Shown here piece by piece: positions 41,404 to 49,289 of a DNA stretch of 64,000 nt. The position numbers and the translations under genes are program-made. A model generated the notes under the pieces. The model was not told where the DNA came from. It saw only the letters and a list, made by a program, of their open reading frames with translations, and made no database searches. Position 1 is the first letter of the stretch, and the number at the start of each line of letters is the position of its first letter. The stretch is taken from positions 20,284 through 84,283 of IMG/VR virus record IMGVR_UViG_3300046373_000039; one strand, written 5' to 3'. Source of the stretch: a virus.

Positions 41404-42825
41404 TTAAAGTCTGAATTCGTTTGACTTAGTATTGATCGGGACAGCAAAAGAGGGAATATCACGGCGTTCTGCTAATGTGATGAAAGCATCACTTGTAGCA
41501 TCTACCTGATCGTCCTTGTTAGCCCTATCACCATTAAAAGCTTCCATTTCAGAAAAGTAAGTATCGTTCCAAGAACCAAATGCGTAGCGTACTAGACCAG
41601 CCTCGGCAGCTGAGGCCACCGGCATAAATCTTGTTATCTTAGACTTATTAGAAGATTTAAGTTTTGCACTAAAACCTTCTTCAATAAGAGCTTTTACCAT
41701 CATCAACCCGGCTGACTTCCCGGCTTGCCCTGGTTCTTGTGGCAGCACTATTTGAGTCTCTTCTGGATCAGACTTTGCGGTCTCAATAATCTTTTGGATC
41801 ACTTCACCATAACGACCACGAAACCTTATAACATCTTCTATGATGTACAAACCGCTTCTGGTCTTAGCCATCAAAACTCCAGCAGTCCAATCAGGGTTTG
41901 GTAAAACCTCGCTCGGAAGCGATCCGGCCAGATCCCACGCCCTTACCCTTTTAACAATATCCATGTCATATGGGTTGATGGGCTCACCTAGCCAATCTAG
42001 TTTAAAGTATCCAGAAGCCTCTTCTCTAATATCCCAATTACCGTAAAGATCGCGCTCTTGTTTTACGCGTTTAAGACCTTGTAGGTTTGCTAAATATCCT
42101 GGGTTGGATTTAATAAGCGGCGGATTGTCATAGATTGTTGCGGATATGAACTGCAAGGATAATGGGAGAACATGACTACCATAAGTATCAAGAAGTTCTT
42201 GTTTAGTATCAGCCCATATCATTTCGTTATTTTGGCGAATAAACCAACGAATCTTACCATCTTTCTTAGGGTCAGCTCGACCAGCATTCTCTTCACCCTT
42301 GGGGATTAACCACCAATCGATCCAACGGCGAATGAAGCTGTCTGGGGATGGGTTGCAAGTTAGGAAGAGGTTAGGTATCATCTTAGCTTTAGACCTAAGA
42401 CGAGAAAGAATAACCAGAACATGGTCTTCTAGAAGTTGGGTAGCCTCATCTACCATACAAGCTGAGACTTGCCTACCACGCCATTTTTCAGCGTCTTCAT
42501 TGGTTTCACAATGACCCATAGCCACTACTGCGCCGGATGGGAATGTGAACGTCATGGCTTTTTTATTTGGTTTGACATTTTCATCAAAAGCTTTATATAA
42601 ACCGTAAGCTTCGTCAAAAATACCACCAGTAGCCATAACACTTGTTTGCTGTTTACGAACAACATAGCCCCGGTAATGGGGGTCATCTATCCATCGTAAG
42701 TGCCTAAGCAATCCACAATAGGTCTTGCCCCCTCCCATAGCTCCACCATATACAATGATGTTTGCATCACTTGAGAGAAACCAACTTTGCTTTAAACTTG
42801 CAGGCTCAAAATTATAATCTGACAT
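41404..42825 (-). CDS. terL: Terminase large subunit
   Basis: A 473-residue packaging motor. Walker A is GGAMGGGKT (27-35), Walker B CMVDEA (123-128), and the coupling motif TCNPS (156-160). The C-terminal nuclease domain begins with the metal-binding D298 (RAWDLAGS) and ends with KDDQVDATSDAF. It cuts concatemeric DNA and pumps it through the portal encoded next. It lies near the start of the packaging/head gene run. Confidence 0.9.
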   Translation of the reverse strand: MSDYNFEPASLKQSWFLSSDANIIVYGGAMGGGKTYCGLLRHLRWIDDPHYRGYVVRKQQTSVMATGGIFDEAYGLYKAFDENVKPNKKAMTFTFPSGAVVAMGHCETNEDAEKWRGRQVSACMVDEATQLLEDHVLVILSRLRSKAKMIPNLFLTCNPSPDSFIRRWIDWWLIPKGEENAGRADPKKDGKIRWFIRQNNEMIWADTKQELLDTYGSHVLPLSLQFISATIYDNPPLIKSNPGYLANLQGLKRVKQERDLYGNWDIREEASGYFKLDWLGEPINPYDMDIVKRVRAWDLAGSLPSEVLPNPDWTAGVLMAKTRSGLYIIEDVIRFRGRYGEVIQKIIETAKSDPEETQIVLPQEPGQAGKSAGLMMVKALIEEGFSAKLKSSNKSKITRFMPVASAAEAGLVRYAFGSWNDTYFSEMEAFNGDRANKDDQVDATSDAFITLAERRDIPSFAVPINTKSNEFRL

Positions 42826-48097: not shown

Positions 48098-48120
48098 TGT
48101 CATTCTCCTTTTATGTGGGG

Positions 48121-48194
48121 TGGGTCCAGTAAGATTTGAACTTACGACCAAAGAATTATGAGTTCTCTGTTCTAACCAGCTGAACTATAGACCC
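48121..48194 (-). tRNA. tRNA with CAU anticodon (Met, or Ile after modification)
   Basis: Complete cloverleaf on the minus strand: acceptor GGGTCTA / TGGACCC, D-stem GTTC/GAAC, anticodon loop CTCATAA, T-arm GTAAG-TTCAAAT-CTTAC, discriminator A. The CCA is not fully encoded (CCC follows). CAU could be elongator Met or lysidine-modified Ile; the sequence alone does not decide. Confidence 0.9.
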
Positions 48195-48199
48195 TTAGA

Positions 48200-48640
48200 A
48201 TAGGTGGGCATTTTCTGAGGTGAAATTAGTATGAGTGCCCTACTCAGATTCATGACGGGATTCACAACCCTACACGTCTATCCGTAGTGTCTTACAGCAG
48301 GCATCCGCCAGAATGCCGGGGTCTCAGGAACTAGCTGAGATACCAGACCTTGCGATCTAGTTAGTTTTCCTTGCTCTCACCCTACAGCAACAAACATGCA
48401 GAAATTGCTGGGGTACGTCTGCACACACAAGGAATTAATAAGGTCGGTAAACAACTCTAAACCACCCCCACATAAAGTGGCTTTAGCCTAGGGCTTAGCG
48501 TGAAGAGTTACCCATTCAAGTATTATCAGCAGCTCACCTAAACTCACGTCTAAGGCTTTCTGTACGTTAGCGGTGGCTCTTCACAAACCAAAGTTGTTTA
48601 CCTATTTCTCACAGACTAGTTTTTCAGGCCGATTGTGAGA
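48200..48640 (-). ncRNA. Large structured RNA candidate between tRNA-CAU and the gene at 48654
   Basis: About 440 bases without a credible gene, in which many perfect or near-perfect helices can be paired. The main ones are 48592-48602 with 48446-48456 (11 pairs), 48577-48584 with 48500-48507 (8), 48367-48373 with 48428-48434 (7), 48607-48613 with 48634-48640 (7) and 48300-48304 with 48313-48317. A GNRA loop (GCAA) closes 48345-48358 on the minus strand. Two loops pair with outside segments: 48397-48402 with 48418-48423, and 48329-48334 with 48357-48362. The strand is assumed to be minus, as for the tRNAs. Confidence 0.55.
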
Positions 48641-48653
48641 CGTTCTTTAAATC

Positions 48654-49049
48654 TTAATCATCGTCAGGCTCATTGAATACCAGAGACAAACGAGGACGAA
48701 CTTCTTTAGCAATCTGTTCAGGAGTCTGTTCACCAGCTTCCAGAGAATCCTTCACTTCAAACTTAAGCTTGTTGTAAGAGATTTCTTCAGCGTTAGCTGA
48801 TTTGGATACTGTGACAATACTATTGACAAGCCACTTACTTGAGCCAAGCTGTTCAGTATCAATCTGTTCACCGTTGATACTCTTCTTGATGTTCTCAAGA
48901 GCTTTATCTTTCATCTCAAGCAATTGTTCTTCTAGTATACGAAGCTTGCTTTTAGTGATGCGTTTACTATTCCCACCAGTGGTCTTACGGTTTGACTTAG
49001 GACCATCAAATCTTGTCGCTGGACTCGGGTTTTTATTCTTTGTAGTCAT
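48654..49049 (-). CDS. Possible small terminase subunit, 131 aa
   Basis: A basic, Asn/Ser-rich start (KNPSPATRFDGPKSNRKTTGG), then a helical core (LRILEEQLLEMKDKALENI) and an acidic end. The opening resembles small terminase-like proteins that begin with NPSPxTRFxxPxxN. It could recognise phage DNA for packaging. It is encoded 7 kb from the large subunit, with tRNAs and structured RNA in between. Assignment is tentative. Confidence 0.45.
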   Translation of the reverse strand: MTTKNKNPSPATRFDGPKSNRKTTGGNSKRITKSKLRILEEQLLEMKDKALENIKKSINGEQIDTEQLGSSKWLVNSIVTVSKSANAEEISYNKLKFEVKDSLEAGEQTPEQIAKEVRPRLSLVFNEPDDD

Positions 49050-49074: not shown

Positions 49075-49289
49075 TTTCTTAAAATTCCTGACAAGTCCAC
49101 TTGCAATAATAACTAATCAGTCACAGGAATTTTAAGAAAGAACACTCACTAAACGAAGGAGAAACGCCGTAAGTGTTCGAAAGATCTATTGGAGGAGAGG
49201 AGGACAATAGATCTTTAAGTGCTGTCTTAGGAGAGGAGATGACAGCGTGAATACCACAATCTTTTTAGACTTAATCTTAGTGATTGTGG
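49075..49289. ncRNA. Array of five hairpins with polypurine/polypyrimidine loops
   Basis: Five consecutive perfect inverted repeats with no gene: 49075-49090/49124-49139 (16 pairs), 49140-49146/49172-49178 (7), 49180-49191/49205-49216 (12, loop GAGGAGAGGAGGA), 49221-49226/49241-49246 (6, loop TTAGGAGAGGAGAT) and 49254-49261/49282-49289 (8). Loops read GGAG-rich on the plus strand and CCTC-rich on the minus strand. It lies between tRNA-Arg and the start of the gene at 48654, so leftward transcription would include it. Confidence 0.55.

Follow-up and report, generated by a model that had tools for sequence, protein, structure and literature searches.

The minus strand of the 64,000-nucleotide stretch of viral DNA analysed here (the window) almost certainly encodes a structured, non-coding RNA at 48195..48613, and sequence comparison indicates that this RNA is an assembly of swappable domains, tRNAs included, built round a conserved core (module A). 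The domains follow one another, from 5' to 3', in the order G, F, A, B+ and tRNA-Met. The 3' edge of the RNA is the 5' end of that tRNA-Met (CAU; 48119..48194, minus strand, recognised by both ARAGORN and Rfam); its 5' edge is approximate, an upstream hairpin CUCACA/UGUGAG (48608..48639, minus strand, pairing 48639-48634/48613-48608) acting as an optional leader that is re-formed in the related locus L109 (loci used for comparison carry L numbers) where a C-G pair is replaced by U-A, a compensatory change, and a single C-A mismatch occurs. The original prediction had placed a large pseudoknotted RNA at 48200-48640, in a region without a credible gene and beside a tRNA on the same strand. The intergenic region, 48195-48653, is indeed bounded by a 131-aa open reading frame and tRNA-Met, both on the minus strand, and holds no open reading frame of at least 40 aa on either strand. 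The 3' edge falls at 48195, slightly beyond 48200, and what had been taken for a single RNA is multi-domain, non-coding and on the tRNA strand as proposed, but made of swappable modules rather than being one fixed RNA. Its 3' tail, CACCUAUUCUAA (48195..48206, minus strand), touches tRNA-Met, and the motif (C)UAUUCU recurs by eye at the 3' ends of these RNAs; a closing helix between this tail and 48609-48603, which competes with neighbouring helices, is tentative.

Judged from the window sequence alone, structure exceeds chance only weakly. The minimum free energy has a z-score of -2.18 on the minus strand, where 5 of 100 shuffles fold equally well, and of -1.58 on the plus strand; a plus-strand RNA was rejected, its fold being weaker and both the tetraloops and the tRNA orientation agreeing with the minus strand. 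The unusual density of helices first reported for the region does not survive comparison with dinucleotide shuffles, 3.5% of which contain a perfect 11-bp Watson-Crick helix and in which the number of helices of at least 8 bp is no different. As the signal in the single sequence is weak, homologues are needed to decide. These were collected by blastn against GenBank phages, through IMG/VR loci encoding relatives of the 131-aa protein, and then with a motif pattern. Apart from tRNAs, blastn returned one convincing match and no other RNA homologue among GenBank phages: the isolate Pseudomonas phage vB_PsaM_M1 (M1), in which the matching sequence sits directly upstream of a tRNA-Pro/Asn/Thr block. 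The protein relatives led to nine syntenic IMG/VR loci whose intergenic regions have short blocks in common. The module A pattern GGTATC..CCTAG..TCTGGCGG matched 37 viral contigs; inspection by eye accepted 26 as true, and the other 11, mostly inside coding sequence, were set aside as chance.

Module A (48298..48362, minus strand; covariance model R1) consists of helix P1 (48361-48354/48349-48342), capped by a GCAA loop, helix P2 (48340-48335/48327-48322) and helix P3 (48317-48313/48304-48300), which carries the near-invariant loop UCUGGCGG. The window RNA has the covarying P1-GGUAUC-P2-P3(UCUGGCGG) core, behind a gene of about 131 aa, by which module A RNAs are recognised, and R1 finds it once in its own genome with 57.6 bits (E 3e-16). 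Across an alignment of 33 matches, which is fitted to the model, 93% of the cells are paired as against at most 46% in slid versions; cells in which both partners have changed number 124, compared with 34.5 in shuffles, and covariation reaches 0.653 against 0.271 in the control. P1 covaries over 31 distinct sequences, with UUCG and GNRA tetraloops interchanging at its tip, while P3 is paired in every sequence that has letters there, with as many as four kinds of pair at one position. The overwhelming covariation among the homologues shows selection at the level of the RNA, though the fold of the window sequence is only marginally unusual. P1 is the GCAA-capped hairpin already noticed at the outset. 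Both of the loop-to-outside complementarities proposed with it exist as sequence (48397-48402/48418-48423 and 48329-48334/48357-48362), and their fates differ: the second, read as a pseudoknot 48362-48357/48334-48329, takes up the 5' strand of the covarying P1 and is non-complementary in the 'AAUCAG' class of homologues, so that it is regarded as spurious, whereas the first, in domain F, stands, and two pseudoknots within B+ had been missed.

With the R1 model, module A is found exactly once in the window's genome and in M1; of 18 further virus genomes or contigs, 17 also have exactly one copy, as do L109 and L158. Overall it is single-copy in 21 of the 23 related phages (genomes or contigs) tested, a biased frequency as these phages were collected partly via module A itself. 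L108 has B+ at a comparable locus but lacks module A, which was also not found in the late-leader regions of a Nankokuvirus and of phage 'ventosus'. In bacterial genomes, 38 pattern matches were judged to be chance, the best scoring 21.5 bits where nearly all true members reach at least 40. Across relatives the RNA lies behind the gene of about 131 aa and upstream of the large terminase, often abutting tRNAs that are contiguous with it on either side, depending on the phage. In the window, the 131-aa gene directly upstream (48654..49049, minus strand) is the syntenic anchor of the locus, its relatives preceding the RNA in most loci; the window's protein matches no family, and the likeness of one divergent relative to DUF5681 is no better than E 0.14. 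The gene possibly encodes a small terminase or DUF5681-like protein. A DNA-packaging RNA akin to phi29 pRNA would suit both this possible neighbour and the single copy per genome. The size and architecture of the RNA, however, differ more among close relatives than a fixed motor ring would allow, it has no match to any Rfam family (the pRNA model itself gives none in the window at E<=10) and B+ is found in unrelated RNAs, which together make a packaging role extremely improbable.

B+, the 3' domain (48206..48291, minus strand), adopts a predicted pseudoknot fold and is scored by model R2 at 72.8 bits over 82 nt (48291-48210). It comprises P1 ACAC/GUGU (48290-48287/48275-48272), PK1 ACGG/CCGU (48285-48282/48258-48255), P3 GUGAA/UUCAC (48265-48261/48224-48220), P4 UGAGU/ACUCA (48246-48242/48236-48232) and PK2, in which the P4 loop pairs with the 3' tail as GGGC/GCCC (48240-48237/48209-48206), all on the minus strand. 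P4 covaries beyond shuffled and slid controls. With anchored strands, P3 forms at least 4 bp in 95% of own strand pairs against 23% of swapped ones (p<=5e-5); the putative PK1 is invariant in 22 sequences, and PK2 is re-formed by eye as GAUCA/UGAUC in M1 and as UUGCCA/UGGCAA in L108. Outside the group of related phages, the B+ pattern is present in over 20 more contigs, in four of which it is part of a phage tmRNA (L085:6247-6664, L092:8670-9115, L100:2717-3157 and L103:4080-4487), placed after the tag frame and before the tRNA-like 3' portion. The Rfam tmRNA threshold is exceeded by L092 and L100 and narrowly missed by L085 and L103 (E about 1e-14); with ARAGORN, a tmRNA is called in L085 and L092. 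About 35 alignment columns are invariant, or almost so, between the window and these tmRNAs, which indicates that B+ is a domain common to the window RNA and phage tmRNAs, a sharing of this domain only and not tmRNA membership. The open-access literature searched contains no description of a pseudoknot being reused in tmRNA and in other phage RNAs. B+ further occurs in M1, upstream of tRNA-Pro/Asn/Thr, and in a lambdoid prophage of E. coli E3 (L151), between a gene at the Q position and tRNA-Arg, with holins next. A search of 369 gammaproteobacterial genomes returned no B+, a weak negative obtained under stricter filters and with no positive control. In two phage contigs (L090:1124-1161 and L106:11610-11647), abiF RNA (RF03085, 40 bits) stands directly 5' of B+, an arrangement that could possibly represent a decoy or antitoxin RNA against AbiF-type defence.

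Module A and B+, two of the four domains in the window, thus pass the covariation check to which the original prediction was put; the other two have fewer homologues. Domain F (48367..48434, minus strand) has an outer helix UUCCUUG/CAAGGAA (48434-48428/48373-48367), inner helices CAGCAA/UUGCUG (48410-48405/48390-48385) and ACCC/GGGU, stacked in the sequence as first described, and a pseudoknot UGCAGA/UCUGCA (48423-48418/48402-48397). Its one distant homologue, in L059, retains the pseudoknot as UACAGA/UCUGUA, with one compensatory change, and has an additional A-U pair on both sides of the outer helix. Domain G (48446..48602, minus strand) contains the 11-bp helix (48602-48592/48456-48446) enclosing the 8-bp helix (48584-48577/48507-48500), both present as predicted. 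Elsewhere it occurs only in L109, a close relative that keeps the 8-bp helix despite two wobble changes and the 11-bp helix despite a wobble and a mismatch, and offers no double compensation; G, seen in two sequences, is the weakest-supported domain. Module C, found in relatives, one copy per genome, and not in the window, was assessed by comparing own with swapped strands: both of its helices form preferentially between strands of the same sequence (z 11.3 and 7.5, p<=5e-5).

The borders of these domains are visible in comparisons between genomes. Depending on the genome, module A is preceded by nothing, by a domain at least about 60 nt long, or by an abutting tRNA-Thr, and is followed by a short hairpin, a long B+, module C or tRNA-Met. 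Between the window and L109, an identity of 91.5% is confined to the RNA plus tRNA-Met (575 columns), the adjacent proteins being 45.6% identical; with L002, L003 and L004, it is the upstream gene that is shared (82-85% DNA identity, ending near or before the stop codon) and the RNA that differs, and with L030, 95% identity runs from about 12 nt before the tRNA through the tail genes. Such sharp edges of identity at the RNA borders show that the RNA moves between phages as a unit. Structured islands retained only as an aid to cassette exchange, in a selfish or neutral recombination hot spot, would likewise have breakpoints falling at gene edges, as observed; compensatory pair changes and near-invariant loops require selection on RNA structure, however, and covariation counts against neutrality, which leaves this explanation very improbable. 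That close relatives swap modules very rapidly would also suit a decoy or antitoxin-like cassette directed against host RNA-based defences, in which the variable domains would track the host and B+ would be the scaffold. The abiF RNA next to B+ in L090 and L106, linked by name to an abortive-infection gene, and the phage tRNAs in the same arrays are in line with this proposal; yet modules A, C, F and G match no known family of defence RNAs and module A is conserved rather than fast-changing, so a decoy is considered unlikely.

In terms of classification, the searches indicate that the module A RNA is a separate family, distinct from GOLLD, ROOL, tmRNA, group I introns and other Rfam families. 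Rfam searches at several thresholds, over the window and more than 30 related loci, returned only tRNA, group I introns elsewhere, tmRNA, abiF and, in other phages, weak YrlA; as the earlier reading had anticipated, cmscan matched the RNA to no known family, in the window even at E<=10. Its statement that a group I core is lacking agrees with the absence of an RF00028 match in the window, the same search finding group I introns in relatives (L042:6875-7142, L059:4217-4449 and L108:1160-1423). No known self-cleaving ribozyme model in Rfam matches the window. GOLLD and ROOL covariance models give no match in the window at E<=10 and none in related loci. The 5' part of GOLLD is variable, and tRNAs may be included in this RNA (PMC12286853). 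Both, for which homo-oligomeric RNA cages are characteristic, resemble the window RNA in being large and pseudoknotted and in lying near phage tRNA islands; in comparison, module A RNAs are smaller (about 80-480 nt between flanking features), have a different core and exchange domains. With tmRNA (RF00023), the window RNA shares the B+-type pseudoknot domain, homologous to that behind the tag frame of the four phage tmRNAs; it has itself no tRNA-like ends with T arm and CCA-type terminus, ARAGORN and Rfam finding no tmRNA in the window, and ARAGORN reports no tag-peptide reading frame. Among weak matches, YrlA (Y RNA-like) sequences occur below the cut-off of 69 bits in phage tRNA regions (L003:835-897 and L103:3221-3282, 39 and 37 bits).

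Stable phage RNAs have been described in comparable settings. RNA-Seq of PAK_P3 revealed two abundant late small RNAs, sRNA1 and sRNA2, one of them between two tRNAs (PMC4933390), and the T4 band C and band D RNAs, cited in the same work, are likewise stable (PMC4933390), their likeness to the window RNA being by description only. The PAK_P3 RNAs occupy the syntenic place upstream of TerL; by eye their sequences are unrelated to the window RNA and they are not homologues, and models R2 and R3 (B+ and C) have no match in the syntenic PAK_P3 region. By analogy of position, they are an experimental precedent for stable RNAs at this locus. Terminases of PAK_P3/KPP10-like and 'ventosus'-like phages share about 45% identity with that of the window. 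The PAK_P3 sRNA2 region (L083:4302-4505) looks tRNA-like, with GCTGTGT/ACACAGC ends, a T arm GGAGGTTCGATTCC and a large insert; this may be why a match to T-loops was reported for sRNA2.

The RNA would be transcribed with the late transcript, as in compact relatives it begins 2-4 nt after the upstream stop codon, leaving no room for a promoter of its own. Excision would proceed by tRNA-type processing, RNase P setting the 3' end at 48195 in the window and the tRNA 3' end setting the RNA 5' end in other phages, and the product would remain, late in infection, as a stable RNA acting in trans; such processing to a stable RNA is probable. B+ would then serve as a portable pseudoknot that shields the 3' side of phage non-coding RNAs from exonucleases and/or docks on ribosomes, and the fast-exchanged 5' modules would meet a changing partner, whether a host factor, the ribosome or a defence component; no conserved partner protein was identified. 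Stabilising or ribosome-docking roles have been proposed for tmRNA pseudoknots and, by analogy, B+ may have either. This combination of stabiliser and variable payload is tentatively favoured, at somewhat less than an even chance.

A cis-acting leader, which would work by put- or Q-like antitermination, Rho exclusion or mRNA stabilisation and yield no free RNA, is also compatible with a place at the head of the late operon. The RNA heads the structural cluster, the same-strand genes on its 3' side encoding tail fibres, the terminase large subunit (41404-42825), portal, capsid and sheath; promoter and terminator signals between the 131-aa gene, the RNA and the tRNA do not exceed chance expectation; and the E. 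coli prophage B+, in a late leader behind the Q-position gene, adjoins sequence common to the lambda right-hand late region. Compared with HK022 put or the lambda late leader, the window RNA is larger and multi-domain. The genes downstream of the RNA vary among phages, processing at the abutting tRNAs would cut the RNA from the mRNA, and B+ also resides inside tmRNAs, which are no leaders and thus count against a purely leader-specific role; a cis-acting leader is possible, though rather improbable.

GOLLD, ROOL, T4 and PAK_P3 RNAs are large structured phage RNAs near tRNAs that went for years without a function. As the module A family is compact, with domain boundaries visible from natural swaps, occurs in the cultured Pseudomonas phage vB_PsaM_M1 and has in B+ a domain open to study within tmRNA, itself well understood, its function is testable domain by domain; the family also shows that phage RNAs otherwise unrelated can have RNA domains in common. 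More speculatively, and with a low probability, phages would possess a kit of RNA domains, B+ being the common stabilising or docking end of tmRNAs, late-leader RNAs and this new single-copy family, and the quickly exchanged payloads, tRNAs among them, adapting the RNAs to hosts, possibly as decoys against RNA-based defence; if true, such a kit would be for RNA what modular domains are for proteins.

Two further elements were noticed on the minus strand of the window. In the leader between tRNA-Arg and the 131-aa gene (49140-49246), hairpins at 49216-49180, 49246-49221 and 49178-49140 carry CU-rich loops UCCUCUCCU; in L002, L003, L004, L030 and L109 the loops are constant and the stems vary. 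These loops are complementary to Shine-Dalgarno sequences, and the plus strand would give GGAGAGGAG loops resembling a CsrA/RsmA sponge. Upstream of a 92-aa gene (phrog_4770), at about 45146-45085, a two-hairpin element presents the potentially kissing loops AAGCAGACGAGGCUGCC and AGCCUGUGUUGUCUGUCUACAGGCU; it is the same in L002, L003, L005 and L032, with variants in L047, L058 and L109.
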